Program-made: the position numbers and the translations under genes
Part shown: one piece after another, positions 2,772-32,602 of the stretch
Layout: each line of letters begins with the position of its first letter
Position numbering within the stretch: position 1 is the first letter of the stretch
Notes under the pieces: model-generated
The model's input: the letters and a program-made list of their open reading frames with translations, nothing else
Database searches by the model: none
What the model was told of the DNA's origin: nothing
Assembly: GCA_905250025.1 (NCBI GenBank)
Contig: CAJNOJ010000032.1
Location: forward strand, 357,501 to 421,500
Origin: Adineta ricciae
Lineage: Eukaryota > Rotifera > Eurotatoria > Adinetida > Adinetidae
Direction: 5' to 3'
DNA: 64,000 nt

Positions 2772-2791
2772 GTTGAATTGTTTTCCAGAAA

Positions 2792-2842: not shown

Positions 2843-2889
2843 TTTTTCTAGTTTGGATATTTGAATATGTTGATTGTAAATAGTTGGCG

Positions 2890-2899: not shown

Positions 2900-3117
2900 T
2901 TCACGCTCGAAGGAAGAATGATAAAAGAAAAGGAAAAGAAAAGGTAGAAGTAACACATGTGGAATGTCTTATCCTAGTTCTTTATTCAACATTTTGCTCC
3001 TATTTTTGCAATGATCACGACGTCAACTTGAATTATGCTTTTACCAACGAGCAGATGAAACATAAGGAACCAACGTTATGATTTTACGAGAAAATATCAA
3101 ACTCACGATATGCTTCT

Positions 3118-3866: not shown

Positions 3867-3872
3867 TTTATT
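3867..3872 (-). terminator. Poly(A) signal of ILP2
   Basis: AATAAA on the minus strand, about 100 nt after the ILP2 stop codon. Confidence 0.5.
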
Positions 3873-3967
3873 GGGGTGTTTTTTTTTCTATTTTCTTTTT
3901 TGACAAAATCAAGCACAAAAATTGAATAGTTCTTCTTTTGAGTGTTGAATATGTCTTTGTATGACCA

Positions 3968-7500: not shown

Positions 7501-8082
7501 ACAGGTAAGAATCCAACACATTAAAAATGTATGTAAATGTAAGAAATCGATTTTTCTTCACTGATCATGTCTGTCTATGTAATAGATGGTAAAAGCGACT
7601 GCATTTTCTTCTATCACACCTTTTTTTCTTCTTTCTTGAAATTGCTTACATATGACGTGCGAAAAGAAGATGATAATTGGAAGATCACGAAGAGAAGTAA
7701 ACGATGCTATGTGCATGTACATACGTCTTTGGCCTTCGATCTTCTCTTCTCTTCTTTTTTGGCGAAAAAAAAACTGCGTGCATACAAGCGCATCATATGT
7801 GCAATAGTCGCGCGCATCTTTTCTTCTTCTTCTTCTTCTTCCCTGTTCTCTGCCTGACATGTTCTATAATCACACCAATATAAAATGCATGTGTGTATCG
7901 AAAGAATACGTAAATTAAAAGGAAAGGGAGGGGGAGAGAACGAAAAGACAAAGAAATTGAGTGTTGAATATGTATAATGAAGACGAAGAGAAGAATGTTG
8001 CGCTTACATCCGTTCTCTCCCCTTTTTTTGTTATGGGATACGAGAAAAAAAAACGAAGATGTAAAAAGATTTCTTTTTCATT

Positions 8083-8116
<34 letters not shown>

Positions 8117-8810
8117 CTTATCTATACGTGCTTAGTATTATCTTCGAAGTATACATTCATCTATTCATCCCATTTATCATCCATCTGAGGAAATTGCCGA
8201 TCGATCGTTGTTTTAATTTCAGATTTTAGTGATTTGCAATTGTCTTCCGTTTCGACTTGCCAAGTCTGATGATTTCGTAGTACAATCATTACCAGTGATC
8301 AGGTAGGAAAAGAAGAAAGTCGAATATCACCTTAAGATACTGATCATCAACATTTTTTCGTGTCATATTTCTTAATGTTGACTACGGTTACGGTCTATCG
8401 TGTATGGATCGATCGTACATAGAAAACTTCGCATTCGATCAAGATGATTTATCTCCCTTCTTCGTTTTTCTCATTTCTCTAAGCTTTTTTCACGCAAGCT
8501 CTCTCACCTATGTACTACACCTGTAATCAAGTTAGAAGAACGAAGATGAGAGAACGACGATGATATGTTGTTATTTGTTGTTGTTATTTTTGTTCGAAAG
8601 GAAAAAACGGTGAAAAGAAATCGTATAAAATATCTCTAGCGAATAGATCGCAAAAGAAATATACATCTATAAAATGATGATCAATCAAAAGTGACATGTG
8701 CATATACATATAAATATGTAAAATATTCGAGACGACTAACTATCGATACATATTCGATTTTTCTTCTCTCTTCACTGTAACGCTCTTCCTCTTTGTTTTA
8801 AGCACCGGTG
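4516..8810. other. Long stretch without a recognised gene
   Basis: About 4.3 kb of AT-rich sequence with many homopolymer runs. Open stretches at 5909-6157 (minus) and 6238-6450 (plus) match nothing I know and lack good starts or splice partners. The right end is the upstream region of the zinc-finger gene and may hold its promoter and 5' UTR exons. A CT microsatellite lies at 8086-8114 and a TTC run near 7818-7842. Confidence 0.5.
8086..8114. repeat. (CT)n microsatellite
   Basis: An almost perfect CT dinucleotide run of about 28 bases upstream of the zinc-finger gene. Confidence 0.8.
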
Positions 8811-11800
8811 ATGACTGACGATGCATCCACAGCTTATATTTGCATCTATTGTCCGTTCAATTCAAGTAATCTTCAAGCACTTGAACAGCATTTAACAAGT
8901 ATTAGCTGAACTAAATGTTACCTTGATATACTATTTATATATTCAGGTGTACATGGACACGGATGTCAAGATACAGCGCAAGCCCAATCACCAACGAATA
9001 TGATTACCAAAACTAATAAACGTGAAGCGCCTGATGATGAACAGGTTATATTCAAACCTTGATTTTGCTTATTACTTCACTCTTTGTCTCTTTCTAATCT
9101 TATTTAGTCTCAATCATCCTTCGATGGAACTGAACAATGGACAGGTAAGGCGCACAACATAGCTTTTTCTTCTCCTTACTCTTTAAAATCGCGTTGTAGA
9201 GCATTCATCGGCTGCTAAACGGATTAAACGAGCATCTTCCCCAATACCAGCTGATGTCTATGGTAATACTAGTGATGATAATTCAGAATTTGATGACGAT
9301 GAAAGAGATTCGCCATTGAATTCATCGGCAACGCCATCAAATGCTTTACTAACATGTCCCGTATGCAACTCGACTTATCAACGTCTAGGTCATCTTGTAC
9401 GGCATGCGAAACGAAGACATCGCATTGATTTATCACATTACGACCAAGCACAAGCATTCGAGACCGCCCCCACGATAGATTTTGACAGAAGTGGCTCTGA
9501 AGAACAACAAAGTAGAGAACAAAGACTAGTTTTTCGATTTCAGAAGGAATGCATTGATGATTTTAACTTTTAGCGGAAAATTTACCATCATTATCGTCGA
9601 CAGCGGAAACCAATTCCGATCCAACCGCAACAACAACAACAACAACAACCGACTGTCCATATTGTGATTTTAAAACGACCGATATCGAACAATTCAAAGC
9701 GCATATCATCGCTCACATCCGTGATAAAAATTACCGTTGTTTATTATGTAATCGATTATATAAATACCGAGGTGAGGGTGATCTACTTACTAAATAAGTC
9801 GCATGTTTCGTATTTATGTTACTTTACTCTTCCAGGTGATTGTTCATTTCACATTCGTCGTAAACACCATCGATACAATGTTAATTCTAATGATTACATT
9901 CAGCGTTTTCTATTTGATACAAATGACGGCGACGAGTCCATGTCGACTCAAGTTGGTGGACATGGATCGTCTGGTAATGGTTCATCGAATAGTATAAATG
10001 CTATACGCGAAGCAGATGAACCTGTACGCTACTTCGGCTGTCCATATTGTGATTATACATCGAATTATGGCGGAGATGTTCGGTAAGGAGATAACTTCAG
10101 TGAAGAATGTTCGAATGATGTTCATCGTTTAGGAAACATCAAGCACGCAAACATCCCAACGCGGAATCGAAAGTGGTTAAGATTATTCGTCAAGATTCGG
10201 AACAGCAAAATCAGAATGGTTCAGATGAAGATGATGAAGGCGATAGCGTCAATTCTCCGATAAATATCCAGCAAAAGACCAAAGCCGCGAGGAAATTGGA
10301 CAAAAGTTTCATTCAACCACAGCCATCATCACTTTCCGTCCTACCAAATTTCGCTCCTGTTCGAGTCTTCCAATGTAGTTCATGTCACCAGCAAGGAACA
10401 TACAAATGGGTTGTCGAACGACACATTCGTGCCAAACATCCGGATCAAGCTAATGTGCATGTCATCGAATTACCAGCTGAATTATCTGTTCGCTTGCAGA
10501 AAATCTCGCCGCCATTGAAACGCTTTCGATGTTCTCTATGCCCGTTGCAATCTAAACATAACTGGGTAGTTATTCGAGTATGTAACACAACAGATCCAAC
10601 AAAATCAAATTCGAGTTTGTATCTTATAGCATATCAAACATTTCCATACATTACAAACGGCGACTGTTGTCGACATTCAACCAGATGGCAAACCCATTCA
10701 GGATGAATCAACAGGTAAACAGAACATAATTTCTCCTCTTGAAAAGAAATATCTTTTTTCGCAGGCGATTTTCCAACTAAAGTATACAATCAAGATTCGG
10801 AGTCGTCCTCAACGACTAGTTCGTGCAATGAAAACGGCATTGATCTTGATGAGGACGACAACCCTTCATCATTTTCATCGGCCAATGCCACTGAATCTGC
10901 GGCATCTGTATACAAATGTTCGTTATGCGACTTTCAATCGAATATTTCATGGAATATTCAAAAGCATCTCAATGAAATGCATGCTGGACAATCGAATGGA
11001 TATATGATAACACAATGTCGACAAGTGAAATTATCATCCAATGATAATAATCCAGCGAAAGTAAATTCGATGAAGAAGCTCAAGCATAAAAATGGTTTTC
11101 ATGGTTCATTGTCACCGTCAAGTGTGATCGCTAAAGCAAAATTTCCGCCGGCGTTCGAAGAAGCTATACTCTCATTGCAAGGTTCGAAATTAAATCCCAA
11201 TCTTTACGCTGTTCAACCGAAATTCGGAATTAAACGTCTAAAATGTCGACATTGCTTCTATCGATCGAATTGGAAAACCGATATGATTCGGCACGTTCGC
11301 ATTCGACATAGTTTAACTGAGCCTGATCACAACAAAGGTAAGCGCACTTTTCGTAATCGATTAACTTTCGATAAACTCGAGATAGGAAGGATTTCTGAAG
11401 GTTCATTTCGATGATCACCTTCGAAGATAGTTCTATTTTCTTGACATACTCATGTGTATCGATTAGTAATGCTTACCGCGTGTACCTATGCTGAACTTGT
11501 CAATTCCGATTTAGATATGATTATGATGACAGAACAAGAAGCTCGATCAACCATCGAACTGTATGAAAATACGTTCGGCAAAGAACTTCGCCGACGCACA
11601 TTTCGCACGTGGAATGATTGGGCGAAAGCGGAACAAGAATTCACACCGAAAGATGGTTCATTACAATATGTAAATCAAGCGAAGTCTTATGAGATTAAAA
11701 ATGTTCGTTTGCTTTAGACTGATATCAAAGGTGGTCAATCGTCTAGTGATCCAACGAAAACACTTCCGAAGAAATCCAATGAACAAAAACACGACGGTAT

Positions 11801-12750
11801 CAAACGAACGAATAAATCTGCAATCAAAACCGATTATCATCAGGAATCTCAACAACTGATTAAATCTTTACTTTTCAACAAATCTCCTCCATCGATTCAA
11901 CAGAAAACGGTAGGCAATTTTGACAAAATTAATTTTGTAACTGCTCTTTTTTTATTTTCAGTTAAATCAATTACCAAATTCATCGAACATCGTCTCTCGT
12001 TTACTTTCAACTCCCAACGATGACGACGACGCTCCATTAGATCTTTCACTAAAACCATCGAAAAAACTCGAAGATAATCATGTTGAACAAAGCGAAGAAG
12101 AATCCGATAGCAATTCTCGTGTTAATTATCTCTGCTCCGTCTGTTCATATAAACATTCCAATTGGTCCGTAGTTCAAAATCACATTTCACTTCATCTATC
12201 AGGTCAAGGACGGACTTGTCCTCTCTGTCCATACGTAACATCAAGTGAAACGTCGATGATTCGTCATCTCACATCAAATCATCCAACTAGTCAATTGCCA
12301 ACTCATTTCTCTGCCGCATCTCCGAACTTAACTGCACATATCCGTGAACAACATCAATGTTCACTATGTTCGTATCAATGCGATCGATTAGAAGCTTTGA
12401 ATCTCCATCGTCGTCTCGAACATGATGACGAAGAATTCGATATTGACTCATCGGATAACGGTGCCGATGATGAGGATGATCTGATGGCATCGACAACGAA
12501 AAATGCTTTTGACTGTCCATTATGTTCACCATCTTCTACAGCAAACAACTTCCAAGATCTTGAACAATTAACAATGCATGTGATTACCAATCATAACAAT
12601 CAAACATGTCCATTTTGTTCGTTCATCGCTCATACGACATCCACCCAAACGTTGAATCAACATGTGAAACTTCATTTCAATGGTACACTTGTTCAACCCG
12701 ATCCAATTGTTGGTATTGAACAAGTGAAAGAGTTACTAATGCTGGAATAA
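8811..12750 (+). CDS. Multi-C2H2 zinc-finger transcriptional regulator
   Basis: A 1,072-residue nuclear protein in 12 exons: 8811-8898, 8947-9044, 9108-9144, 9200-9511, 9574-9771, 9836-10082, 10133-10577, 10630-10714, 10765-11337, 11515-11669, 11718-11909 and 11962-12750; all phases fit. Widely spaced C2H2 fingers run through the protein (CIYCPF, CPVCNSTYQ, CPYCDFK, CPYCDYTSN, CSSCHQQ, CSLCPLQSKHNW, CSLCDFQSN, CRHCFYRSNW, CSVCSYKHSNW, CPLCPYVTS, CSLCSYQ, CPFCSF). Many have an S-N-W or H-N-W before the histidine helix. An acidic/Ser-rich linker and a PLDLSLKP motif in the last exon, of the CtBP-binding PxDLS type, suggest repression. The layout of scattered fingers recalls REST/charlatan-type proteins, but I cannot assign an orthologue. 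The ATG at 8811 directly precedes the first finger, so it may be preceded by noncoding exons. Confidence 0.85.
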
Positions 12751-13516
12751 AATCTCTTCTGATACTCTCATCGAGTTGAGCTTTCGTTTTCGCTTTCTTT
12801 TTTATATGGATATATTGTTACTTGTTTTACAGTTTCTTTTCGTTCTTTTTACTTTCTCACGGTGGTAGTTCGTTTCCTTCTTTCATTTCAATTCTTTTTT
12901 TTCTTTTCGTGTGGTAGTGAAACAAATCAGTATTTAACTGTGTTATCGTACCAATCTATGGGCTCTTTGCTTTTTCTATTTCAAGTCACATTTCATTTAT
13001 GAAGAAAAATATGCGATCTAAATTCGTTATTTAACTTGTCGGAAGCTCAAAGCGAGTTCATTTTGACCTTCAACGATGAGAGTCGTTTCTCAAGGTAATT
13101 ACTCGAGAAAATATTGTTCGTTCGAGCTAATCATTAGTGATGATGATGGTAGTAGTAGTATCATTATCAGTGTAATTAATTGCGACGTTCTTTCCTTTGA
13201 TTATAATGACAAATTAAAGGTAAAAGTCGCAGATGGTTGAAGAATCGAAAAATTTCATTGGTTGCAAGAAGAGCGAATGAATTTTCATTGGAGTAGAGTA
13301 TATTTTTATTTGAAATTGATTTAATTTGAACGTTTTTTTTTCGATTGTATCATTATTTCATATAATTTTTCTTATCATTGTGCCGGACGAAGTCGACAAC
13401 GATTGTGGCGCTCCTATCCGATTGTTTATTATCGGTAGCGAAAATATACGGACTTGATCATCTGTTGTTCTGTCCATGAGATTTATTTGTTACAAAAAAT
13501 ATTTGTTTTTCTACTG
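12751..13516. other. Intergenic
   Basis: 3' flank of the zinc-finger gene and upstream region of the MEK gene. AT-rich with T runs; nothing else seen. Confidence 0.5.
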
Positions 13517-15494
13517 ATGTCAAACATGCCACGAGCTGATGCAGCTGGAGTGAAAAAGAATAAACTCGGTTTGAAATTACCCGAAGTTCCAAAAGACGCT
13601 TCTGAACAAAACCATAGTGAAAATGGGTATGTACAGCATGCTGACTAGAAATCAATTCGAGCTTTTCTTTTTGAATGGATATTTTAGTATTCCGGATGTC
13701 TGCATCGAACGATTGCAAGAAGAATTCAAACAACTTGATTGTACTGATACACAGAAAAATCGAATGGAAGAATTCTTCAATTCAAAACGCGCCGTCGGTG
13801 AATTGAAACAAGATGATCTTGTCAATATTTGTGAATTGGGACAAGGCAACGGCGGTGTTGTTTGGAAAGTTCGACACAAACCCACGGATAAAATCATGGC
13901 TCGCAAGGTTTGTAAATCAGATCAAAGCATGTCTAACTGAAAGGAGTGAAACATATCAGTCGCTATGCTTTTGTTGCTTGTATCCGTACGCTGCTTGTTT
14001 AGTATTGTTCGTTTCCCAATACTGATTTCTATTGTTGCAATTGGTGCCAATGGTTTTGGAATTCTCTTGCACCGGGAAAGGTAGATTTGTTGCATGGCTC
14101 TTAAAAAAATACACACACACATATATATGTCTTATCTTTCGAGAGATTTTTTTCTTGTATGTGAAGTGAATCTAGACGCTAATTTCCTATTGTTTTAGCT
14201 CATCTATCTGGAAGTCAAACCAGCTTTGAAAAATCAAATTATTCGAGAACTGAAGGTATGCATCTGGTTTTGTTTGAAAAAATTGTGTGTAGGAGGAGAA
14301 AGTTTCTAGGTCCTGCATCAATGTAATTCACCGTACATCGTCGGTTTCTACGGAGCGTTTGCTGTGGAAGCTCAAATTAGTATTTGTATGGAATATATGG
14401 TAAATAGGGAATAGTATTTATCCGATATGCATAGATTTTGTTTAGGATGGTGGCTCATTAGATTTAATTTTGAAGAAAGTGATGCGTATACCAGAGAATA
14501 TTCTTGGTAGAATAACTGTCGCTGTAAGAATCAATGATTTCGAAGTAACGCTGGAATGTACTCTTTATTTGAAAAGGTTCTTCGCGGTTTGAGCTACTTA
14601 CGAGAACGACATCGTATCATGCATCGAGGTAAACATCTTCTTGTAATATTTCGATTCTATTCTATATGAATATCTCTTTGCGAAGATATAAAACCATCGA
14701 ATATTCTTGTCAATCATCAAGGTGAAATCAAACTATGTGATTTTGGCGTTAGCGCCCAATTAATCGATTCGACAGCGCTAACATTCATCGGTACACGTTC
14801 ATACATGTCTGTAAGTATGAGACTCATCTTGCTGGAGAAGACAGTATAGTAAATACAATTTATTTTCGTAGCCCGAACGACTTGAAGGTACACATTATGG
14901 AGTAATGAGTGATATTTGGTCATTGGGTCTTTCACTTGTGGAAATGGCCGTTGGCCGATACCCTATCCCACCTCCGTCAACTGAAGACGTCGTTGATTTA
15001 TTCAAAGAAGATCCCCACGGAAACCGGCCACGACCAGAAGGTTTGCTCTAAGCCGAACATAAATATTTAGCTTAACCGCAATTGATCGTTTGTAGGTTAT
15101 GGTAGTTACAGGGGTTTGGCTATTTTTGAGCTAATGGAATGGATTGTCAACGAAGCTCCTCCGACATTACCTCGTTCACTTTTTTCAGCTGAATTTTGCG
15201 ATTTTATCGATCGTTGGTAAATAAATCTCTTTTCGCAAGGCTTCCACCATCATTTTCCATTTTAGCTTAAAAAAAAGTACATCCGAACGAGCTGATTTAA
15301 ACTCACTTTTAGTAAGTGAACTTGTCCGATCGCATTCATTCAACATAATACCTGACTGTCTTTAGAATCATTCATTCTACAAACGATATGAAACCGAAAG
15401 TGATAATCAAGATGTAGCCGCTTGGATTCGGCAAGTCTGTCGAACCGAGTCCGATGGCACCAACGATAATAATCATCGACGTGTTGGTACTTAA
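13517..15494 (+). CDS. MAP2K1/2: MAP kinase kinase, MEK1/2 type (copy A, complete)
   Basis: A dual-specificity kinase that in animals phosphorylates ERK downstream of Raf. It has 398 residues (human MEK1 has 393) in 11 exons: 13517-13626, 13688-13907, 14199-14255, 14310-14399, 14446-14523, 14577-14628, 14686-14810, 14872-15040, 15096-15216, 15266-15311 and 15366-15494. Visible landmarks are the glycine loop [11 protein letters not shown], the catalytic lysine in MARK (K110), MHRDIKPSN (D203), DFG (221-223), SYMSPERL, and the MEK-specific VGRYPIPPP before a proline-containing insert. The activation loop reads [14 protein letters not shown], so the second phosphosite is Thr (T235) where MEK1 has Ser. 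The N-terminus keeps a LKLPEVP and GELKQDD region. The last nine exons recur at 19002-20297 because of an assembly join. Confidence 0.95.
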
Positions 15495-15993
15495 TCGCAA
15501 TATGACCAAGCCAACAAGTCAGATGCGTGATGATCTCTCTGGACACCTATAAAGAAAAAAAGAAAACTTTTACTTCAAAGCAAAATTCTTGTCGTTTCTT
15601 CGTTTGTTTGTTTTTTTTCTCCCTGTTCGTGTTGTTCGTTGTCTAGCAAGTCGTTTTCTTCTATGTACAGTTCGGTTTTCAATAAGTCTGTGTACGCGAG
15701 TGTTTTCATACAAACAGTGATTATTTTTTGTCTTCTCTTCTCGTCGTTTTTTCTCTATCTTTAACACATATGCGTTCTTCTCCGTGCAATGATGATCATG
15801 TATCGACGTGGATTTCGGTTGAGCGAGAAACGAGAAAAGACAATAGAAACGAAAGTCTATCTATGATACTCATTCCATTGCTCCAATCCTTCGTCTGTTT
15901 TTCTTTCCTACTCTTCACTCTTGTCATCGCAGCAAAAGATTCTCTAAAAACTAATATCTTTTCAACAATGCTTTACTTTAAGATTATCAAATT
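15495..15993. other. Spacer between MEK and TCP11L1 (copy A)
   Basis: MEK 3' flank and TCP11L1 5' flank, T-rich, with no coding pattern. It is well conserved between units A and B, as allelic sequence would be. Confidence 0.5.
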
Positions 15994-17929
15994 ATGTCGA
16001 ATCCGAATAATGAGGAGCAAAAAAGTGAACAGCAGCAACGGCCGTTAGGAGCAGTTCTTGGTTGGCTCAATCTATCACCAACGTTACCAAACACGCAAGA
16101 CAATATGGCGGGAGCGACAGCTGGTTGGTACTTCTTTTCTGTACAATTGAACATCATGCAATATTTTCGATTTTAGCTTCGCCTCCGAGATTCATCGATT
16201 ATAGTCAATTGATGGAAGCGAATCGAAACGCACAAAACCTTCAACTTGCGCATGAGATTGTATTCAATAAAGATTTTCAGTTACAATTGCCCGAATATGA
16301 AAAAGGAAGGTGAGTGACTGAGATTACCCTTGGCTATGACGGAACTCTTGTTATTATTCATTTCGATTTAGTATCGCTGAGAAAGTTCATGATACAATGC
16401 ATACGGCCTTTTGGGATGTTCTGGGCGAAGATTTGAAAGCAGATCCGCCTCGTTACGAACATATTATCAAATTAATCGGCGAAGCCAAAGAAGTAAGTTT
16501 CGCACTTTCAATTCAAAGCATTTCTTTTCTATTCAATGATTTCTAGGATCTTAAAACTTTAGTTTTACCTCATCAAACCACTTTAAAAAGTCATATCGAT
16601 GACGCGATTGATCTCGAAATCATCAAACGTCGATTCGAAGCCAATGAAGCTGATCCTAACGAATACACCAAATATTTCATCGATATGATGGCTAGCCTTT
16701 GCGCTGAATGCCGAGATGAGAACATTGCGAAACTACGGACAATTACCGATCCAGCGGAATGTTTTAGGTAGGTTCCGATCACTCCGAAAACAAAATTATT
16801 TCGCTTTTTTTGAAGAGGTATTATGGAAGTTTTGAGTTTAATGAAACTTGATATGGCAAATTTCAATATTCGCCAATACCGTCCGCTGTTACAACAACAA
16901 GCTGTAGCGTACGAAAAATCTACATTTGACAAATTCATGGAAAATCAACGAGGTACGTCGACATTTCTTTTTCCGAAACAGAAATTTTTCTTATTGATCG
17001 TTTAGCAATGGGTATTGATCCATTGTTGTCAACATATAAATGGCTTGAACGAGCTTTCAATCGCTTAAAAACCAATGATACCATTGGTTGGTATCAAACG
17101 CCAACTTCGTCTTCCATTGATAGTCCATTAGTCATTCTGAATGAAGCTTATTGTGAACTTTTACTCTGGAATCCTAAGTATCCATTTCCTGAAGTAAAAA
17201 ACATTCACAGCTAGTTTCCTCTATTGTTCGTTGTATTTTGATCCATTAGACATTAGAATTAGATGAAATTCGTTACAATCAAGTTCATGTTGCAACAATG
17301 CGTTTGTTATTAATTTCCACCATCATGACCGTCCTATCGCATTTAACTGGTTCTGTTCTACGAGATCATGAAGCGATCAAAACAATGCTCAAATCGGAAA
17401 TGATCATTCTTCTAGATGATTTTCCACAAAAAAAGTAAGTCGATTGCTTTTCTCTCTTTCCGAATACGTTGGTCATTGTCTTCGGTAGGAAGTTGAAAGA
17501 GGTGCTGATATCACTAAGCGAACAAGTAGTTAAAACAGCAAAAGAACAATTAGAAAAACATGACAGAGCAAAAGTTATCATCGATAACGAACAAAACATC
17601 AAAAAGGCAATCACAGCAATCGGCGAGCACCATGTCATCGAACACGCTGTTTTCAAGTTACTCTGTAAGTCTTTTTCATCTTCCCTAAACAATTTCATTG
17701 TATCCGTTTAGTTCAACGTTACATATCGTTTATTCATCATCTATTGGATCATCATTCGACAAGCGCTTCAGCGCTATCGAACGTTGCCATTCCGAATGGA
17801 TTGAATATCGTTATGAATGAAGTGATCACAACCGTCAGTTTTTTTCTTCGGTTGATAACTTACAACAAGATGGTTTTCAATGAACATTACGATCGGTTGA
17901 TTTCTCAAATTCAATCCTCAGCGAAATAA
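15994..17929 (+). CDS. TCP11L1: T-complex protein 11-like protein 1 (copy A)
   Basis: A member of the TCP11 family, whose testis-type member is tied to sperm motility and PKA signalling; the molecular role of TCP11L1 is unclear. The model gives 502 residues in nine exons (human about 509): 15994-16123, 16177-16309, 16372-16492, 16547-16767, 16816-16952, 17006-17193, 17250-17434, 17489-17664 and 17712-17929. Recognisable family blocks are ASPPRFIDYSQLMEA, LAHEIVFNKDFQL, HTAFWDVL, DPPRYEHIIKLIGE, LVLPHQT, MMASLCAECRD, LSLMKLDMANF and WLERAF. The stop lies about 80 bp from the converging immunoglobulin gene. Unit B holds a second complete version differing at a handful of residues. Confidence 0.93.
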
Positions 17930-18009
17930 TTTCTTTTTGTTATTCTTTTTCTAAATTAATCCTGAACAAATAGAATTCATCATGGACGGAAAATAGAAAA
18001 TTTTCTTTT

Positions 18010-18958
18010 TTATTGTTTATACAAACAGGATAAAAATGCTGAACATCCGAAAATAAATATGGTAAAAGAGTGTCTCGTCGATCGGTTCGCCATTTCATCG
18101 AGCTTTTCGGATAAGAATTCATCTAAAACTCATTCCTTTATTTCAAGCATTGAATTTCATCAAATGTTCTACCTGTCGTTGTCGAAACAGAAGATAACGA
18201 TGAACTGTATACTGACGTGGTACTTGTATGTCGATGTTTCTTGGTAAAATGATGACTTTCCAGCATGGTTATTATCTGTTCACCTTGACCATAACGATTT
18301 ATTGCACGACAAATAAAATTTGAGTTAAATAGACGCTTTGGGATACGCTGAATGAAAGAAACGGTTCGAAATGAAGGACAAAGTCGAAAAATACTATCTT
18401 ACTTGAATAAAAAGACTTGTTTTCCATCTTGTCGCATTTAACTGTTCGTGTTTAATAAACCAGATTCTATCTTCTCGTTTTTTATCTAATTTTTCCTGCG
18501 AATATTGTCGAGATAAGTCAATTTCTTGTTTCGTCTCATTTGAATATCGATGCAGCCATCGAATATCCGGTTCGGGATTGGCATCGACCATACATTCAAT
18601 CACTACTGCATCTCCAACCGAATGACGAACTTCTTCCCTTGAACTATGAACATACGGCGGGACTATTCAATAAAAATTCCTGTCTTTCTCGAAAACAAAC
18701 ATGACATTATCTTACATTGAACATCGACTTCATAGAAACGTCCGATCGTTCCCACACTATTCATTGCTATGCATTCATAGATGCCATTATCCCATCGATG
18801 AATATTAACAAGATTCAACTGACAGGTGGTAGGCGTTGTCGAACAATTAATCATAAGATTTTGATTATATTCTTTGAAAAAAAGTGACATTAGCGAAAAT
18901 GAGTCGATTTCATCAAATTAATACCGTCTGTCTTTCTTATCCAACTCAGATACGGTTC
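18010..18958 (-). CDS. Immunoglobulin-domain surface protein (copy A, 3' part)
   Basis: The 3' exons of the same gene as the complete copy at 22804-24366, cut by the N at 18959, which falls in the coding exon of the second Ig domain. It holds the YNQNLMINC...DNGIYECIA part, the third Ig domain (GDAVVIECMVDANPEPDIRW) and the hydrophobic tail. The lost 5' end is an assembly effect, not gene decay. Confidence 0.85.
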
Positions 18959-18959
18959 N
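18959..18959. other. Single N: contig join 1
   Basis: A lone ambiguous base. To its left the sequence is inside the immunoglobulin gene. To its right it restarts at the equivalent of 14157, inside a MEK intron. A repeat boundary falling exactly on an N is the mark of two overlapping contigs placed end to end. Confidence 0.9.
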
Positions 18960-19001
18960 GTATGTGAAGTGAATCTAGACGCTAATTTTCGATTCTTTTA
19001 G

Positions 19002-20297
19002 CTCATCTATTTGGAAGTCAAACCAGCTTTGAAAAATCAAATCATTCGAGAACTTAAGGTATGCGTCTGGTTTTGTTTGAAAAAGTTTTGCCTTAGATGA
19101 GAATGTTTTTAGGTCCTGCATCAATGTAATTCACCGTACATCGTCGGTTTCTACGGAGCGTTTGCTGTGGAAGCTCAAATTAGTATTTGTATGGAATATA
19201 TGGTAAATAGAGGATAGTATTTATTCGATGTGCATTGATTTCGTTTAGGATGGTGGTTCATTAGATTTAATTTTGAAAAAAGTGATGCGTATACCAGAGA
19301 ATATTCTTGGTAGAATAACCGTCGCTGTAAGAACCAATAATTTCTAAGTAACGCTGAACTTTACTTTTGATCTGAAAAGGTTCTTCGCGGTTTAAGTTAC
19401 TTACGAGAGCGACATCGTATAATGCATCGAGGTAAACATCTCCTTGTAACATTTCGGTTCTATTCTATATGAATATCCTCTTCACAAAGATATTAAACCA
19501 TCGAATATTCTTGTCAATCATCAAGGTGAAATCAAACTATGTGATTTTGGTGTTAGCGCCCAGTTAATCGATTCGACAGCGCTAACATTCATCGGTACAC
19601 GTTCATACATGTCTGTAAGTTTGAGACTTATCTTCCTGGAGAAGACAGTGTAGCAAATATAGTTATTTTCGTAGCCCGAACGACTTGAAGGTACACATTA
19701 TGGAGTGATGAGTGATATTTGGTCATTGGGTCTTTCACTCGTGGAAATGGCCGTTGGCCGATATCCTATCCCACCTCCATCAACGGAAGATATCGTTAAT
19801 TTATTCAAAGAAGATCCTCAAGGAAACCGACCACGACCAGAAGGTTTGCTCTAAGCTGAACATAAATATTCAGTTTAATCACAATTGATCGTTTGTAGGT
19901 TATGGTAGCTACAGAGGCTTGGCTATTTTCGAGCTGATGGAATGGATTGTCAATGAAGCACCTCCGACATTACCTCGTTCACATTTTTCAGCTGAATTTT
20001 GTGATTTTATTGATCGTTGGTAAATGAATTTCTCTTCGCAAGGCTTCCATGATCATTTTTCATTTTAGCTTGAAAAAGAGCACATCCGAACGAGCTGACT
20101 TGAACTCACTTTTAGTAAGTGAACCTGTCCGATTGCCTTCACTCGACATAATACCTGACTCTCTTTAGAATCATTCATTCTACAAACGATATGAAACCGA
20201 AAGTGATAATCAAGATGTAGCCGCTTGGATTCGGCAAGTCTGTCGAACCGAGTCCGATGGCACCAACGATAATAATCATCGACGTGTTGGTACTTAA
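19002..20297 (+). CDS. MAP2K1/2: MEK1/2-type kinase (copy B, lacks first two exons)
   Basis: Exons 3-11 of the kinase again, from [15 protein letters not shown] to the stop, with intact splice sites and reading frame. The residues are nearly identical to copy A; visible differences include EDIVNLF against EDVVDLF and RSHFS against RSLFS. The glycine loop and catalytic lysine exons are absent because the unit begins at the N at 18959. It should not be counted as a separate truncated kinase. Confidence 0.9.
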
Positions 20298-20786
20298 TCG
20301 CAATATGACCAAGCCAACAAGTCAGATGTGTGATGATCTCTCTGGACACCCATAAAGAAAAAAAAACTTTTACTACAAAACAAAATTTATGTCGTTTCTT
20401 CGTTTGTTTTTTTCCCTGTTCATGTTGTTCGTTGTCTAGCAAGTCCTTTTCTTTTTATGTACAGTTCGGATTTCAATAAGTCTGTGTGCGCGAATGTTTT
20501 CATACAAACAGTGATTATTTTTGGTCTTCTCTTCTCGTCGCTTTTTCTCTAACTTTAACACATATGCGTTCTTCTCTGTGCAATGATGATCATGTATCGA
20601 CGTGGATTTCGGTTGAGCGAGAAACGAGAAAAGACAATAGAAACGAAAGTCTATCTATGATACTCATTCCATTGCTCCAATCCTTCATCTGTTTTTTTTC
20701 CTACTCTTCACTCTTGTCATCGCAGCAAAAGATTCTCTGAAAACTAATATCTTTTCAACAATGCTTTACTTTAAGATTATCGAACT
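20298..20786. other. Spacer between MEK and TCP11L1 (copy B)
   Basis: Counterpart of 15495-15993 with small indels. No gene seen. Confidence 0.5.
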
Positions 20787-22720
20787 ATGTCGAATGCGAA
20801 TAATGAGGAGCAAAAAGGTGAAGAGCAGCAACGGCCGTTAGGAGCAGTTCTTGGTTGGCTCAATCTATCGCCAACATTACCAAGCACGCAAGATAATATG
20901 GCGGGAGCGACAGCAGGTTGGTACTTTTTCTTTGTACAATTGAACATCACGCACTATTTTCGATTTTAGCTTCGCCTCCCAGATTTATTGATTATAGTCA
21001 ATTGATGGAAGCGAATCGAAACGCACAAAACCTTCAACTTGCGCATGAGATTGTATTCAATAAAGATTTTCAGTTACAATTACCCGAATATGAAAAAGGA
21101 AGGTGAGTGACTGAGGTTACCCTTGCTATGAAGGAACTCATGTTCTTAATCATTTCGATTTAGTATCGCTGAGAAAGTTCATGATACAATGCATACGGCC
21201 TTTTGGGATGTTCTAAGCGAAGATTTGAAAGCAGATCCGCCTCGTTACGAACATATTATAAAATTAATCGGCGAAGCCAAAGAAGTAAGTTTCGCACTTT
21301 CAATTCAAAACATTTCTTTTCTATGCAATGATTTCTAGGATCTTAAAACTTTAGTTTTACCTCATCAAACCACTTTAAAAAGTCATATCGATGACGCGAT
21401 TGATCTCGAAATCATCAAACGTCGATTCGAAGCCAATGCAGCTGATCCTAACGAATACACCAAATATTTCATCGATATGATGGCTAGCCTTTGCGCTGAA
21501 TGCCGAGATGAAAATATTGCGAAACTACGGACAATTACCGATCCAGCGGAATGTTTCAGGTTGGTTTCAATCACTCCGAAAACAAAATTATCTCGCTTTT
21601 TTTAAAGAGGTATTATGGAAGTTTTGAGTTTAATGAAACTTGATATGGCCAATTTCAATATTCGCCAATACCGTCCGCTGTTACAACAACAAGCTGTAGC
21701 GTACGAAAAATCGACATTTGACAAATTCATGGAAAATCAACGAGGTACGTCAGCATTTCTTTTTCCGAAACATAAAATTTTTCTATTGATCATTTAGCAA
21801 TGGGTATTGATCCATTGTTGTCAACATATAAATGGCTTGAACGAGCTTTCAATCGCTTAAAAACCAATGATACAATTGGTTGGTATCAAACGCCAACTTC
21901 GTCTTCCATTGATAGTCCATTAGTCATTCTGAATGAAGCTTATTGTGAACTTTTACTCTGGAATCCTAAGTATCCATTTCCTGAAGTAAAAAACTTTTAC
22001 AGTTCATTTCCTCTATTGTTCGTTTCACTCCGATCCATTAGACATTGGAATTAGATGAAATTCGTTACAATCAAGTTCATGTTGCAACAATGCGTTTGTT
22101 ATTAATTTCCACCATCATGACCGTCCTTTCGCATTTAACTGGTTCTGTTCTACGAGATCATGAAGCGATCAAAACAACGCTCAAATCGGAAATGATCATT
22201 CTTCTTGATGATTTTCCACAAAAAAAGTAAGTCGATTGCTTTTCTCCTTTTCCGAATATGTTTGTCATTGTCTCGGTAGGAAGTTGAAAGATGTGCTGAT
22301 ATCATTAAGCGAACAAGTAGTTAAAACAGCAAAAGAACAATTAGAAAAACATGACAGAGCAAAAGTTATCATCGACAACGAACAAAACATCAAAGAGGCA
22401 ATTACAGCAATCGGCGAACATCATGTCATCGAACACGCTGTTTTCAAGTTACTCTGTAAGTCATTTTCATCTTCTCTAAACAATTTCATTGTGTATGTTT
22501 AGTTCAACGTTATATTTCGTTTATTCATCATCTATTGGATCATCATTCGACAAGCGCTTCAGCGCTATCCAACGTTGCTATTCCAAATGGATTGAATATC
22601 GTTATGAATGAAGTGATCACAACCGTCAGCTTCTTTCTTCGATTGATAACTTACAACAAGATGGTTTTCAATGAACATTACGATCGGTTGATTTCTCAAA
22701 TTCAATCTTCAGCGAAATAA
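20787..22720 (+). CDS. TCP11L1: T-complex protein 11-like protein 1 (copy B)
   Basis: A second complete TCP11L1 with the same nine-exon layout as 15994-17929. The protein differs at scattered positions: MSNANNEEQKGEEQ against MSNPNNEEQKSEQQ at the start, EANAADP against EANEADP, VLSEDL against VLGEDL, LKDVL against LKEVL, and KEAIT against KKAIT. All frames are open and splice sites are kept. It is most likely the other allele of the same gene, carried in by the contig join at 18959. Confidence 0.92.
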
Positions 22721-22803
22721 TTTCTTTTTGTTATTCTTTGTCTAAATTAATCCTGAACAAATAGAATTCATCATGGACGGAAAATAAAAAATTTTCTTTT
22801 TTT

Positions 22804-24366
22804 TTATTGTTTATACAAACAAGATAAAAATGCTGAACATCCGAAAATAAATATGGTAAAAGAATGTCTCGTCGATCGGTTCGACACTTCATCGAACTTT
22901 TCGGATAAAAATTCATCTAAAACTCATTCCTTTATCTCAAATATTCAGTTTCATCAAATGTCCTACCTGTCATTGTCGAAACGGTAGATAAAGATGAACT
23001 GTATACTGATGTGGTGCTTGTATGTCGATGTTTCTTGGTAAAATGATGACTTTCCAGCATGGTTATTATCTGTTCACCTTGGCCATAACGATTTATTGCA
23101 CGACAAATAAAATTTGAGTTAAATAAACGTTTTGGAATACGCTGAATGCAAGAAACGATTCGAAATGAACGACAAGGTCGGAAAATACTGTCTTACTTGA
23201 ATAAAAAGACTTGTTTTCCATCTTGTCGCATTTAACTGTTCGTGTTTAATAAACCAAATCCTATCTTCTCGGTTTTTATCTAATTTTTCTTGCGAATATT
23301 GTCGAGATAAATCAATTTCTTGTTTCGTCTCATTTGAATATCGATGCAGCCATCGAATATCCGGTTCGGGATTGGCATCGACCATACATTCAATCACTAC
23401 TGCATCTCCAACTGAATGACGAACTTCTTCCCTTGAACTATGAACATACGGCGGGACTATTCGATAAAAAATTCTTGTCTTTCTCGAAATCAAACACGAC
23501 ATTATCTTACATTGAACATCGACTTCATAGAAACGTCCAATTGTTCCCACACTATTCATTGCTATGCATTCATAGATGCCATTATCCCATCGATGAATAT
23601 TAACAAGATTCAACTGACAGGTGGTAGGCGTTGTCGAACAATTAATCATAAGATTTTGATTATATTCTTTGAAAAAAAATGACATTAGCGAAAATGAGTC
23701 GATTTCATCAAATTAATACCGTCTGTCTTTCTTATCCAACTCAGATACGGTTCGGGTTTGCCATGCGCTTCACAATCAATCGAAACGTTCCTTCCGACTT
23801 GCGTACGAATCAACGTGGAATAATCGTTGGTAATGAAATACGGCCGTTCTATCGGTTAGCAAGATGGGAAATTGTACGAAAAGGGAGAAACAGGTACGTA
23901 CCGACGATGTTTAATAAGAACAATTTGATGACTTTGTTATCTGCTTGACACGAATAAGTTCCACTATCAGTTAAACGTAGATCATCGATTATTAATGAAT
24001 AGGTGATGATCTCCGATGATGTTGTACTATTAATCATATGAAAACTTGAACGCTGTTCGATTTGAAAACGTTGATCAGAATTAATTCGACTAGTTGCATA
24101 GAAAAATACTTCTGCATCTTCTAACCGTAACCATAAGCCCTTGAACAAACGAAAATATCGTATTCAAATGTCAAACAGTCGACGAAAACTCTTACTTTTC
24201 GATTTCCATTGATCGTCGAGTTATTTAATTGACATTCAATTCGAATCCGTTTGCCTACATTGACATTGATCAACTCTCGCGAGACGAAACTCTCCTCCAT
24301 TAAGCAATTGGTCATTGTGTGCAAAACGGTACAAACGAACGCCGTCAGAAGACGACAGTCTCTCAT
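22804..24366 (-). CDS. Three-Ig-domain cell-surface protein (complete copy B)
   Basis: A 413-residue secretory-pathway protein in seven exons: 24366-24196, 24139-23902, 23848-23720, 23666-23511, 23456-23197, 23141-22967 and 22916-22804; phases fit. It starts with a signal peptide (LLTAFVCTVLH). Three immunoglobulin domains follow. The first has RIRIEC...LRLTDSGTYSCQAD, the second NVSIDCEAHGKPEPYLSW...DNGIYECIAMN, the third VVIECMVDANPEPDIRW...FICRAINRYGQG. A Ser/Thr-rich linker and a short hydrophobic C-terminus (FTIFIFGCSAFLSCL) look like a GPI-attachment signal or membrane anchor. The architecture is that of lachesin/IgLON/neurotrimin adhesion proteins. The gene ends about 80 bp from the converging TCP11L1. 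Confidence 0.85.
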
Positions 24367-25105
24367 TTGTTAACTTGGAAATAATGATTACTCATCTAAA
24401 AACACATCTGATCGGAACAGAAAGCATTCGGACGCGTCTTTCTCTTTCTCTAGATATAGGGATGAGTTCTTTCTATACTTCTCCTCCTACTCTTCGCACG
24501 TGCATATACAAACATTATTAGAATAAGAGAAGCTGATTAGTTGAAAGATATTCTTCACCAAAGAAAGAAAAAAAAGACAATCTTTCACCTGTAGCTGCTT
24601 ATGACTGATGGTTAACTTCTGACACATTATCGATGAAGCATTCATTTGAAATGAATATGTTCAGAAAAAGAAGAAGAACGAGAAAGGAGAAGAGAAATTC
24701 ACTTTCCTCTTCTTCCATCAAACTTTATGAGAGGTCACAAATGCACGGCGTGTAATCAGGCAAACACAGACGGTCCGTCTCATAATTAACTCATTGTTAT
24801 CATCATCCTTCTCCTCACAGTTCGTCATAGAAATGAACATATCCGTTGAAAACAGTTCCGTACCTGACTTTCAACGCAAGATTTGTTAATGCGAATGAAT
24901 AGAATTGACAAGTGGATGCCATACACTCACAATAAACTATATGAACAACGCTTCTCACACATATTAATCCTTCAAAGTCGATGATGAATGATTATGCAAG
25001 CATATTCTTTTTGATTCTCTCTTCTTGCTCACGCGATGAATTAACAATACTCCTACTTACTATTGTCTGAATAAGACAAGAGCAAATCTCCCAGCTGAAT
25101 GCGAA
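23896..25105. repeat. Overlap unit B' (repeated as unit C)
   Basis: About 1.2 kb holding exons 1-2 and the upstream region of the immunoglobulin gene. It is repeated at 25107-26313 with roughly 2% difference plus small indels. Confidence 0.92.
24367..25105. other. Upstream region of the Ig gene (copy B)
   Basis: Noncoding 5' flank on the right of the minus-strand gene. It is conserved in unit C. No other gene seen. Confidence 0.5.
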
Positions 25106-25106
25106 N
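25106..25106. other. Single N: contig join 2
   Basis: A second lone ambiguous base. The sequence after it restarts at the equivalent of 23896, the splice donor side of Ig exon 2. This is the same signature as at 18959. Confidence 0.9.
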
Positions 25107-25577
25107 ACGTACCGACGATGTTTAATAAGAACAATTTGATGACTTTGTTATCTGCTTGACACGAATAAGTTCCACTATCAGTTAAACGTAGATCATCGAT
25201 TATTAATGAATAGGTGATGATCTCCGACGATGTTGTACTATTAATCATATGAAAACTTGAACGCTGTTCGATTTGAAAACGTTGATCAGAATTAATTCGA
25301 CTAGTTGCATAGAAGAACACTTCCGCATCTTCTAACCGTAACCATAAGCCCTTCAACAAACGAGAATATCGTATTGAAAAGTTAAACAGTCGACGAAAAC
25401 TCTTACTTTTCGATTTCCATTGATCGTCGAGTTATTCAATTGACATTCAATTCGAATCCGTTTGCCCACATTGACATTGATCAACTCTCGCGAGACGAAA
25501 CTCTCCTCCATTAAGCAATTGGCCACTGTGTGCAAAACGGTACAAACGAACGCCGTCAGAAGACGACAGTCTCTCAT
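25107..25577 (-). CDS. Immunoglobulin-domain surface protein (copy C, first two exons)
   Basis: Exons 1 and 2 of the same gene: signal peptide and first Ig domain, starting at the ATG at 25577. It is cut at the N at 25106. It differs from copy B in a few residues (VLHTVANC against VLHTMTNC). It is a haplotype overlap, not a third gene. Confidence 0.85.
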
Positions 25578-26313
25578 TTGTTCACTTGGAAATAATGATT
25601 ACTCATCTAAAAACACATCTGATCGGAACAGAAAGCATTCGGACGCGTGTTTCTCTTTCTCCAGATATCGGGATGAGTTCTTTCTACACTTCTCCTCCTT
25701 CTCTTCGCACGTGCATATACAAACATCATTAGAATAAGAGAGGCTGATTAGTTGAAAGATATTTTTCACCAAAGAAAAAAGACGACAATCTTTCACCTGT
25801 AGCTACTTATGACTGATGGTTAACTTCTGACACATTATCGATGAAGCATTCATTTGAAATGAATATGTTCAGAGAAAGAAGAAGAAGAAGGAGAAAGAGA
25901 AGAGAAATTCACTTTCCTCTTCTTCCATCAAACTTTATGAGAGGTCACAAATGCACGGCGTGTAATCAGGCATACACAGACGGTCCGTCTCATAATTAAC
26001 TCATTGTTATCATCATCCTTCTCACAGTTCGTCATAGAAATGAACATATCCGTTGAAAACAGTTCCGTACCTGACTTTCAACGCAAGATTAGTTAATGCG
26101 AATGAATAGAATTGACAAGTGGATGCCATACACTCACAATAAACTATATGAACAACGCTTCTCACACATATTAATCCTTCAAAGTCGATGATGAATGATT
26201 ATGCAAGCATATTCTTTTTGATTCTCTCCTCTTGCTCACGCGATGAATTAACAATACTCCTACTTACTATTGTCTGAATAAGACAAGAGCAAATCTCCCA
26301 ACTGAATGCGAAG
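25107..26313. repeat. Overlap unit C (repeat of unit B')
   Basis: Matches 23896-25105 and then continues into unique sequence after the shared ...CTGAATGCGAA. Confidence 0.92.
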
Positions 26314-27093
26314 AGAGTGAGGGAGAAAAAGAAAACAATATTTATTGATTGTTGCTTGTAAAGCTCTCCCTCCCTCTCTCTCTCTCGTCTGAATCAATTA
26401 AATTTTCATTTTCAATACAAAACAACGAACAGACTTCGATTATACGTAACGCACCATTACTTTCTTTGTTTAACTATACAAATGCTTCTGAATACAAAAG
26501 AATAGATCGATTTACTTCTACCTCGTCACGAAGATGACACAAATCATCTTTCTCGCTCGATCAACATCGAATTTATACAAACGTAGTGTGTTTTGACAGC
26601 GCCTCGAAGCGTTTATTCAGATGAAATTGAATGGAAGAGTAATTAACGAGATGAACTATGGTTGAAAATATGTCAAACTGATAGACCTTGCTTCGTTCAA
26701 AACGTTGTCATGTACATTTTCCTCGTGCACTTGATTGATAAGTACGGAAAAGAAAGTGCACGTCAGAGGAGGAAGTCAATGATCAATTAGATGATATTGA
26801 TTGAAATAAACAGTTTATATCAGATAAGAATAGACGAAGAAAGGCATCAGTTTTATCATTTCTACAAACAATTGTCTTGTCTGACAAGAGATTTTTCATG
26901 TTTCTGCTTTCTTTCATGTTAACAACTGTTCAATATATCACACTTGTCGGGACCATTTTCCGATGACAAAAGTCAGAAGATCATTTGGATAGTGTACAAA
27001 TTCGAGATGATGTAATTCATGTCTTAGAAAAGTTCTGTTTTTGTCTTTCAATGTAGGTAAATAGAACGGAGAAAGAACAAATATGATTTTTGA
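25578..27093. other. Intergenic, upstream of Ig gene and 3' of W2-like gene
   Basis: The left part repeats 24367-25105. The right part is unique and AT-rich, with a CT-rich run near 26366-26387. No gene recognised. Confidence 0.5.
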
Positions 27094-28144
27094 TTAGAGT
27101 TGATCCAAAAATGATTGAGCAAATGGTTGGATTCGTTCGAAACCTCGGTAGACATTTGATTTTTCGTTGTGACACCAGTTCAGCAATGTTTCTTTGGTGA
27201 AAAATTGATTGTTCCAGAAGAATTGTAGCAAAGCGTTGAATATATGAACTGAAAATAATGAAACTGAAAGGAAATTTTTATCCGAGAACACTTTCCGTAC
27301 GTATTTCATCATCTGAACGATTCGACGAGGTGACAAATATTAGAATTGATGTGAGCATTGCGAGTTGATGTTCGGGTTTTTGGATATATTTCTTGATTGT
27401 ATTCATATGATAGGATAAAATTTGATCATTGGTATTCGACGAGTACCAAGCTTGAAAAAGTGAAACGAGTAGAGTCATTAACATTTGATCATGCGGAAGT
27501 CTGAGTAAATTCTATTGAAAATCAATAGTGCGAAGAATGTGAATCGTTCAGAAGAAAATTACCTTAGAAATGTAACGGTTCAGATATTGGTCACTCGTAC
27601 CGGAGATGATTTTGAAGCGATTAACTAATTTTCTGAAAGGTATGATTGAGGGAGGTTCAATTGTTTTTCGTGTTGAGGAATTTTCAAGCGAAGGAGATTG
27701 ATGTTGATGCTCAGGAGGTATTGATCGAATGTTTTCGTTTACAATCTCTGCAATAGCTTGAAGACTTTGCTTTCTTTGGATATTTTCATGTATTGTTTTC
27801 GCTTCTTTCATCACACGTTCTGTTAATTCAGTTTCTAACGTATTAATACGATCTTTTTTCCTTGCGATATCCCGAAATCTCTCTGTATATATTCGCTCAA
27901 CTTGATCTATTTGACATTGTCGCCAAGTTCGAAGTTGAGACGTTGCACTTTGACGATCACATCGTACTTTTTGTAACAAAACGTCCAACTCCTGTGCCAC
28001 ACCATTGATTTGCTTAGAAACTTGAACAGTATGTTTGACAACCTCTTCTCTATGAGCAAGAAGATGCGTTGAACATAGACGACATAAGCAATGCAAGCAA
28101 ATCGCTACTTGAGATTTCGCACACGAACTTTCTTGGCAATTCAT
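27094..28144 (-). CDS. Cys/His-rich coiled-coil protein with W2-like C-terminus
   Basis: A 315-residue protein in three exons (28144-27563, 27511-27301, 27248-27094), phases consistent. The first 40 residues hold a Cys/His cluster (CQESSC, CLHCLCRLCSTHLLAHR) resembling a B-box-type zinc site. A long charged helical stretch, likely coiled coil, follows to about residue 150. The last 50 residues (LLQFFWNN, FTKETLLNW, then FAQSFLDQL) look like the end of a W2/eIF5C domain, the W-containing bundle in eIF5, eIF2B-epsilon and eIF4G that contacts translation factors. I recognise no orthologue with this combination. Function is unknown; a regulatory or scaffold role is only a guess. Confidence 0.7.
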
Positions 28145-28581
28145 CAGGGTTTGTTTTTCACGAACACGATACTTACTTTTCAGTCAATGAAAAGAACCCG
28201 ATATGAGTCATCAGGTTTACTATATAGGTGGCCTCGCGATGCTTGGTAAACACAAAACATGTCAGAGACGATTTTCATCTGCAGCATCAACTAGTTTTAC
28301 ATTTACGAAGACGATCGGAGGAAATTGTAGTTTATTGACCTGTCGGAAGTTGTTTCTGTGAGAAAATTATCTTTCGAATGAATTGAAGAATTCGATTTTA
28401 ACTGAATTCATCCTTTCATAACGAATTAAATATATAGTTAATCAACGTCGAGATTTTTGCTCATCTCTCGAGAGACGAAGATGACTTATCGCTTACTGAA
28501 AATGAATTTGTACGAAAATGTATGAGTGAAAGCAAGAGTAAATGCATGGTTACGTCGAGATCTGCACAGAAAATAACTAGT
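28145..28581. other. Spacer
   Basis: Short AT-rich spacer holding the promoter side of the W2-like gene and the 3' end of the calcium sensor gene. Confidence 0.5.
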
Positions 28582-29260
28582 TTATTGGTTAAATGGTGAA
28601 ACGATATCAGATATATAGGGATTTTTGAGTACGCCTTCCACGAATTCATCTTTAGTTAATGAATGATCATTGTTAACATCGATTAATGAGAAAACATCGT
28701 TGACACAACGTTCCGGTGGGTATTCATCTTTGGATTTGCCTGATAGATCGTACATAGCCGACATAACTCGCACCATTTCTTTTCGATCAATTGAATTATT
28801 TTTATCTTTGTCATAAATGGCGAAAACATATTCCAATTTTTGCCGCATCGTACCCAATGATGTGATCGCGTACCCGCCTAAAACGTTCCGAGAAGAATTT
28901 CGCTTGGAATTTGAAGAACAATTAGTACTTACAGAGAAATTCTTCGAAGTCGATCTTGCCATTTGAGTCGCGATCGAACGCAGTAAAGATGAAATTAACA
29001 ATCTCTTTGACTTTATCATCCGATTCCATGCGTAACGAACGATAAAATTTAAAGAAATCCTTTCGATTCATTTTACCCGATGAACATGCACTGAGAAATT
29101 GTTTCCTAAAAAGAAAGCAAAAGGTGTCTTTTCTTGAAAGATTTTCCGTCGAATTGACAAACCTCCATGCTATAATCACTTCACGTTCTAAGCCTGTTTC
29201 TTCTGTTAATTTATCCAAAAGTGTTGGATCCAATGACGATTTCGTTGTTTTATTTCCCAT
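28582..29260 (-). CDS. Neuronal calcium sensor family EF-hand protein
   Basis: A 188-residue calcium sensor (family members are about 190) in three exons: 29260-29163, 29105-28933 and 28877-28582. The MGNK start gives a Gly-2 for N-myristoylation, the calcium-switch membrane anchor of this family. The first EF hand is degenerate (ACSSGKMN), as in the family. EF2 (DRDSNGKIDFEE), EF3 (DKDKNNSIDRKE) and EF4 (DVNNDHSLTKDE) keep the calcium-liganding positions. FEEFLCGYAITSLG matches the NCS-1/hippocalcin/recoverin linker. I cannot tell which subfamily it belongs to. Members of this family regulate channels, kinases and GPCR desensitisation at membranes. Confidence 0.9.
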
Positions 29261-30827
29261 CTAGTAAATATGCTTAATAGACAAGAAAAAGAAATACGAA
29301 CTAAGTATCGATCTAACAAACGACAACAACTTCACTCTTTCTCAAATTTTCATCGAACAAACAATAACTCGAAACTCATATGTTTCTTCTCTCTCTCTCT
29401 CTCCTTGCTAATTTCAAGTCAAATGTATAGATGTACCCATACGAAGAACAAAAGCACGCAATGAACAGCAATTCATTCCTCCTCTCGTGTAGTTTTTCAT
29501 TTGTAGTCTCGAAGTAGCATGCAGTTGTTTGGTCTCTTGAGAAACTAACACAGCATAACGTTCCTTCGACTAGTCGTCTCGATATTAGTTTTAATCAAAC
29601 ATGACACATAGAGGAACGAATATATTGTGACAGATCGATAGATCTATGTATCGAAGTAAAAAGAAGTAACTCCGACTGTTTGTTATTCTTTACTAAAGCA
29701 AAAAAACTGATCTAATGATGTGATCGTCTTTCCTTGAAAAGCATACGGCGGAGGAAGAAACTCGCGTTTTCTTTTGCCTCGCTCTTCTCTGCCTATTTAT
29801 TTAATGAATAAATGATCATCAGTTAAAAAACGACTTAAATCAATAGATAAATGTCGAAAGAGAAATGAACTGAAAACAAATGATCGTGGCCAGTCAATTC
29901 TTGATTGTCGGAAGAGAAAAATTCGCGAGTTTAACACGAATTCGATCGATAGATTCATCTCATTGATCGCTTACTTTCTCTGCTTGTGTGTATTGAGTTG
30001 AATCTGTTATCTTTCTCTTCTTCTTCTTATGTTCTGATCATTGAATAGAATGTTTCTGTGAAAGGCGACTTGTCATCATGTATTCTTTTTCTCATCGCTA
30101 CGTTTTTTTTTTCTTCTTTTCGTTCTTTATTCGTAGTTAAACAATTGGTGATTATCTTTCTCAAGAGATTTTCTCTTCTTTTTTTTTTCGGAACAAGAGA
30201 CATACTGAACAGTCGGACTGTATTCCAAAAGGCGTATCCGCAGAAGAAAAGATCAAACCGCCGGAGATTTGCAAAAGTTTTGATAATTATAAATTTGACT
30301 ATCTTATCTAATTCACCTGACTAGATAGAATTAATATTTTAAGAACAAACAGAAGAAATAAATCTATTCTCTGATTAGTATGGAGATTTATTGATTGACA
30401 AATGAATACATCGAAACAATTATTAGATTGTTTAGGAATGAAATAGAGATTTGTCTTTGTTATCGTAATATTATTCTTTTCTAAATTGGTTCTTTTTTCT
30501 CTGTCGGACCGGAACAATGAATCTCTTCTGTCTAATGTTCAAATGCAATTTGTCTTTACACTCAAGGCTACTGACATGTCAACTATTTCAGCTAGCAAAG
30601 CATTGTGAATGAGCTGATCGTTGGTAACTTTCGATTTCAAAGATGTTTACACGAATTATCTTGGTGTTGACTTGTAATGATAACATTGTACAAAGACAAG
30701 AGACAAGCTATTGATCGGATTAATCATAGGTCTCTTGTCTGGACAATGTTTATCGATGAATTAAACGTTGATAAAGAGCAAAAAAATCATTGTCACAATC
30801 AAAACACTTGTCATTTGATTGAACAAC
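29261..30827. other. Intergenic
   Basis: About 1.6 kb between two divergent genes (NCS minus, lectin receptor plus), so it probably holds both promoters. It is AT-rich with T and CT runs. No coding signal. Confidence 0.5.
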
Positions 30828-32467: not shown

Positions 32468-32550
32468 CATTTCAACAAATGAATTCATACCCGTGATTTT
32501 CTCACACGATAATCAGTTTCTCTGACCCTCATACATTTATTCAACAAAAA

Positions 32551-32556
32551 AATAAA
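32551..32556 (+). terminator. Poly(A) signal of lectin receptor gene
   Basis: AATAAA 84 nt after the stop codon, just before the converging DUF5672 gene. Confidence 0.5.
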
Positions 32557-32602
32557 ATATACAAAACTTGATTGTTCCACATTGTAAATTTCAATGAAAC
32601 AG

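Follow-up and report, generated by a model that had tools for sequence, protein, structure and literature searches.

We describe an apparent head-to-tail duplication of 4.8 kb in the genome of the bdelloid rotifer Adineta ricciae which, judged from sequence comparisons, is in all likelihood an assembly artefact, with two allelic haplotypes of one locus laid end to end. The window, i.e. the whole stretch of DNA analysed here, comprises 64 kb (contig C32, positions 357501-421500) of assembly ARIC003 (GCA_905250025.1), a reference set meant to be haploid, for which 135.6 Mb in 4,302 sequences, a GC content of 35.5% and an N50 of 283.8 kb are reported (PMC7943196). The genome searched for comparison consisted of 130.46 Mb in 1,033 contigs. 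Four observations support a reading as an artefact: the coincidence of two repeat boundaries with two Ns, the allele-level divergence of the copies, the single-copy state of the ohnologous blocks and the finding that no other near-identical copy is listed in the contigs searched. At the real locus, MEK, the TCP11-like gene and the Ig-domain gene are probably each present once, the interrupted copies of the kinase and Ig genes being artefactual. The doubled stretch is composed of the following features:

13505..18958, plus strand: end of the left contig, carrying MEK, the TCP11-like gene and part of the Ig gene, namely its 3' portion (MEK1 match, exon conservation against C5, Pfam)
14157..18958, plus strand: copy A of the first overlap (4,802 bp), with which the left contig ends (BLAST and MAFFT against 18960-23753)
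18959..18959, no strand: lone N, very likely a false join; the contigs overlap, which puts their true distance at about -4.8 kb
18960..23753, plus strand: copy B of the first overlap (4,794 bp), with which the middle contig begins
23754..23895, no strand: 142 bp unique to the middle contig
23896..25105, minus strand: second overlap, copy with which the middle contig ends, exons of the Ig-domain gene
25106..25106, no strand: second lone N, very likely a false join, with about -1.2 kb as the true distance
25107..26312, minus strand: second overlap, copy with which the right contig begins

Exactly two letters of the 64-kb window are not A, C, G or T, i.e. the single Ns at 18959 and 25106. Self-BLAST of the window (E up to 1e-10, word size 11) lists two repeats beyond the self-match, the first aligning 14157-18958 with 18960-23753 at 94.5% identity over 4,810 columns and the second aligning 23896-25105 with 25107-26312 at 96.7% identity over 1,213 columns. 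Alignment with MAFFT results in gap-free identities of 94.9% for the first repeat (246 mismatches, 178 of them transitions and 68 transversions, and 20 gap columns) and of 97.2% for the second (34 mismatches, 8 gap columns). In both repeats the base before the N is the last of the left copy and the base after the N is the first of the right copy. The piece between the two Ns (18960-25105) has a length of 6,146 bp, made up of 4,794 bp of left overlap, 142 unique bp and 1,210 bp of right overlap. The two alignments begin and end with identical runs of 29, 74, 121 and 11 columns, in which no common k-mer length is apparent. An earlier note on this DNA had described 14157-18958 and 18960-23753 as colinear and a few percent divergent, with the repeat boundary exactly on the lone N at 18959, and both statements are borne out, the copies abutting the N to the base. 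Its account of the extent stands for the first overlap and needs widening beyond it, since the second N junction at 25106, the 142 unique bases and the third contig were absent from it; three contigs, not two, are involved.

What a lone N stands for in this assembly can be judged from 335,000 scanned bases (264,000 of C32, 48,000 of contig C5 and 23,000 of contig C187; GC content 35.9%), which contain four Ns, all of them single; two further 3-kb loci without Ns are left out of this count. At this density, an N would coincide with a particular junction with a probability of about 1.2e-5, and Ns would do so at both junctions with about 1.4e-10; these values are crude because the density used includes the two Ns at 18959 and 25106. 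Clean overlaps are present at two of the four scanned Ns, i.e. 18959 and 25106. The lone N at C5:89719 has no flanking overlap, and its allelic contig C187 has about 1,183 bp more there (between 62001 and 60817), the sequence missing from C5 apparently including part of an EF-hand gene that matches 28579-29215 of the window. The lone N at C32:293806 precedes the second copy of a tandem repeat by 17 bp and does not abut it in the way seen at 18959 and 25106; the repeat (about 288591-291073 versus 293823-296313) shows 76% identity over about 2.6 kb and 90% over the first 1.05 kb, and a further copy (83%) ends 13 bp before the N. For this repeat no other match is listed in the genome searched, and it may be either a real duplication or two dissimilar pieces that were joined. 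As C5:89719 has no overlap and C32:293806 differs, a lone N does not always mark an overlap; a single N here is a join of unknown size and not a one-base gap. Real-looking tandem repeats do exist nearby on C32, and a short overlapping direct repeat of about 290 bp with 89% identity was seen at C32:491275-491785. A search for telomere repeats gave 38 hits (12 forward, 26 reverse) versus 44 for the reversed control; as this control is itself a rotated form of the repeat, the comparison carries no information.

The first gene of the doubled stretch encodes a MEK1/2-type kinase on the plus strand, with N-terminal exons from about 13505 and a match of 13575-13940 to MEK1 among PDB sequences (E 1.2e-17). 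Compared to the ohnolog on C5, the coding sequence is conserved to about 13910, and the next MEK exon starts at 14199 in the coordinates of copy A. Position 18960 corresponds to 14157, between these two points, confirming that the right-hand unit starts mid-intron in MEK as had been noted before; the MEK gene of copy B is without N-terminal exons. We call the second gene TCP11-like: the name TCP11L1 stems from the earlier note, and the support found here is a weak Tcp11 match below the Pfam cut-off, in a single exon and with E 0.004. A Phage_integrase match in one exon of the TCP11-like gene, also under the cut-off (E 0.0066), was taken as chance. The third gene contains Ig domains according to Pfam hits and is encoded on the minus strand; its 3' part lies in the left contig and is cut by the N at 18959. 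The compared MEK and TCP11-like exons of copy B are open and the encoded protein is nearly identical to that of copy A. The 142 bp of the middle contig hold most of an open exon of the Ig gene (about 23849-23718, minus strand), for which translated matches show conservation in both ohnologs with 68% amino acid identity. The bridging contig therefore supplies real sequence and is not wholly redundant. At the second junction, the copy at 25107..26312 has its first bases where, by eye, an Ig exon appears to have its splice donor. The proposal made before, according to which overlapping contigs or haplotypes were placed end to end, MEK, TCP11-like and Ig genes are over-counted and their truncations are artefacts, is supported by these comparisons and appears highly probable.

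The divergence between the copies is informative on their origin. Across 14 exon segments of the three genes, 45 synonymous and 5 nonsynonymous differences separate copies A and B (dS 0.133, dN 0.004), and outside of these segments they differ at 196 of 3,045 sites (6.4%). The corresponding values for nine exon segments of C5 versus C187 are dS 0.097 and dN 0.003, and for A. ricciae homologs a median divergence of 4.55% and a mean KS of 0.135 are given in PMC5916493. The two copies are 94.5% identical and C5 and C187 are 95.5% identical (over 16.1 kb), far above the identity to the ohnologous block, which is 66-89% depending on the stretch, with aligned stretches alone being counted. The seven segments of the MEK copies are all open and carry 1 nonsynonymous and 17 synonymous changes; in a crude model with neutral decay of MEK copy B on half the divergence, the expectation is about 31 nonsynonymous changes, the probability of observing one or fewer being about 2e-12. 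The tandem copies thus resemble two alleles, with strong purifying selection in the compared exons of both, the "truncated" MEK included. The unlike divergence of the two overlaps (5.1% versus 2.8%) fits varying heterozygosity rather than one event.

Searching the genome with copy A as a query yielded high identity only to copies A and B among the 10 matches, with six candidates scored; next best were C5 and C187 with 66-77%, and C126 with 79% over one 63-bp stretch. C5 and C187 are collinear with the window (for C5, about 6438 to 35298). The counterpart interval of window positions 15479-18249 is shorter on both contigs (76.7-77.9 kb on C5, about 73.9-75.0 kb on C187). No internal repeats were found in the ohnologous blocks at E up to 1e-20 in 48 kb of C5 and 16 kb of C187, and each of these contigs thus has one MEK locus and one Ig locus. 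The pattern of homologs and ohnologs in the genome looks like that of a degenerate tetraploid, and degenerate tetraploidy has been published for bdelloid rotifers (PMC5916493). For query positions 1323-4123 of copy A, which include the TCP11-like gene, no match is listed in C5 or C187, which together with the shorter interval suggests that one ohnolog of this gene may have been lost from the C5/C187 block. For the flanks of the doubled stretch (5001-13000 and 26400-34000), no second near-identical copy is listed among the best candidates in the contigs searched. Among these contigs the second allele of the locus is therefore seen only as the tandem piece, and, since no separate contig with the second allele of the flanks was found, the assignment to haplotypes is confined to the overlaps. 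The flanks are without a listed second allele, whereas the ohnologous pair C5/C187 was assembled as two alleles. Collapse of alleles or removal of haplotigs may be uneven across the genome.

These data can be set against the alternative that a 4.8-kb and a 1.2-kb segment were each genuinely duplicated head to tail long ago, the assembly having failed at the junctions, which were left as gaps. Head-to-tail order and continuous alignment are compatible with such a history, and another tandem repeat (76-90%) is located about 80 kb away on C32. The end of copy A lying beside the start of copy B is also expected from a true tandem duplication, so that the geometry alone does not discriminate between the two. 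We nevertheless regard an old duplication as very improbable, because it needs two independent events 142 bp apart with junctions on the only two Ns in 64 kb, because both ohnologous blocks are single copy and because the divergence is at the allelic level. It is further disfavoured by the MEK copy without a start, which shows no neutral decay and no relaxed selection. A genuine tandem is expected to have continuous junction sequence; instead, an N is placed exactly at the boundary of both junctions.

The argument from selection would be compatible with a very recent duplication between diverged haplotypes. Unequal exchange of this kind would link two alleles on one chromosome with an allele-level divergence and would leave no time for the decay of truncated copies, and linked alleles are reported for the A. 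vaga assembly of 2013 as well as for A. ricciae in 2018, there with 2 tandem cases (PMC5916493). However, it leaves unexplained why an N is found exactly at two junctions and why three contigs tile the locus with 142 unique bases, and many breaks of collinearity span scaffold gaps according to PMC5916493. We assign little more than a trace of probability to it. If it were true, with alleles arranged head to tail, the locus could not be split into two haploid sets. That the middle contig originates from another individual, strain or amplification product instead of the second allele of the same line is barely credible: although ARIC003 was made from DNA obtained by whole-genome amplification from about 200 animals derived from one individual (PMC7943196), differences of 5% between individuals are unlikely in a clonal line and the divergence is at the level of the allelic pair within the genome; such an origin would moreover still mean a joining artefact.

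We thus return to alleles laid end to end, according to which the tandem duplication is, with high probability on the data compared here, not a feature of the chromosome. In this model the assembler would have built the two allelic haplotypes of the locus as separate, overlapping contigs, and the 6,146-bp contig bridging a 142-bp hole would have been scaffolded between its left and right neighbours. The overlaps, being about 5% and about 3% different, would not have been merged, so that each join would have been written as a single N and not as a negative gap. SSPACE-type scaffolders write one n for a negative gap that is not merged, and the default threshold at which Redundans drops contigs is 80% overlap; the middle piece overlaps its left neighbour by 78.0%. 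The software step behind the single-N joins is one that we infer; the treatment of negative gaps in PMC5368935 and PMC6733440 gives no notation used by SSPACE, and methods section 17 of PMC7943196 does not name the scaffolder applied to A. ricciae. The middle contig (18960-25105) presumably represents the other haplotype throughout.

The arrangement resembles the "duplicated overlapping contigs" (DOC), reportedly introduced by Kelley and Salzberg in 2010. DOC are a class of false segmental duplications (PMC2864568), and as in the description given there, the facing ends of adjacent contigs align, here to their very ends, probably because divergent haplotypes were assembled twice. In that work an alignment has to exceed 300 bp and to lie within 300 bp of both contig ends, with a better fit of mate-pair distances after merging as a further criterion; in the window 4,810 and 1,213 columns align, and the adjacent contigs are separated by only one N at each join. 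Unlike DOC as presented there, two joins flank one bridging contig, each being marked by a single N. The screen of vertebrate assemblies in PMC2864568 used an identity of >95%, a screening cut-off rather than a definition, which the second repeat exceeds with 96.7% and which the first falls just under with 94.5%, at an allelic level of 95.5% in this genome.

Among bdelloids, the closest counterparts are linked blocks ("tandem" or "palindrome") in the assemblies of A. vaga from 2013 and A. ricciae from 2018, in which allelic copies are likewise found on one scaffold. For the A. vaga assembly of 2013, 25 linked allelic blocks are listed, 2 tandem and 23 palindromic, and scaffolding errors are suspected behind such blocks (PMC5916493). 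In contrast to these blocks, for which at least five genes were required in the account of PMC5916493, the doubled stretch contains at most three genes and is below that screen. The presence of linked alleles on a single scaffold had at one time been taken as a sign that bdelloids evolved without meiosis (PMC5916493). One-N joins as found here would escape a filter for long gaps. The locus provides a small worked example of how linkage of alleles and false extra or truncated genes can arise at a scaffold join. Its biology is ordinary, and its value is that of a warning on how assemblies are read, as a smaller instance of the problem posed by the linked blocks of bdelloids as set out in PMC5916493.
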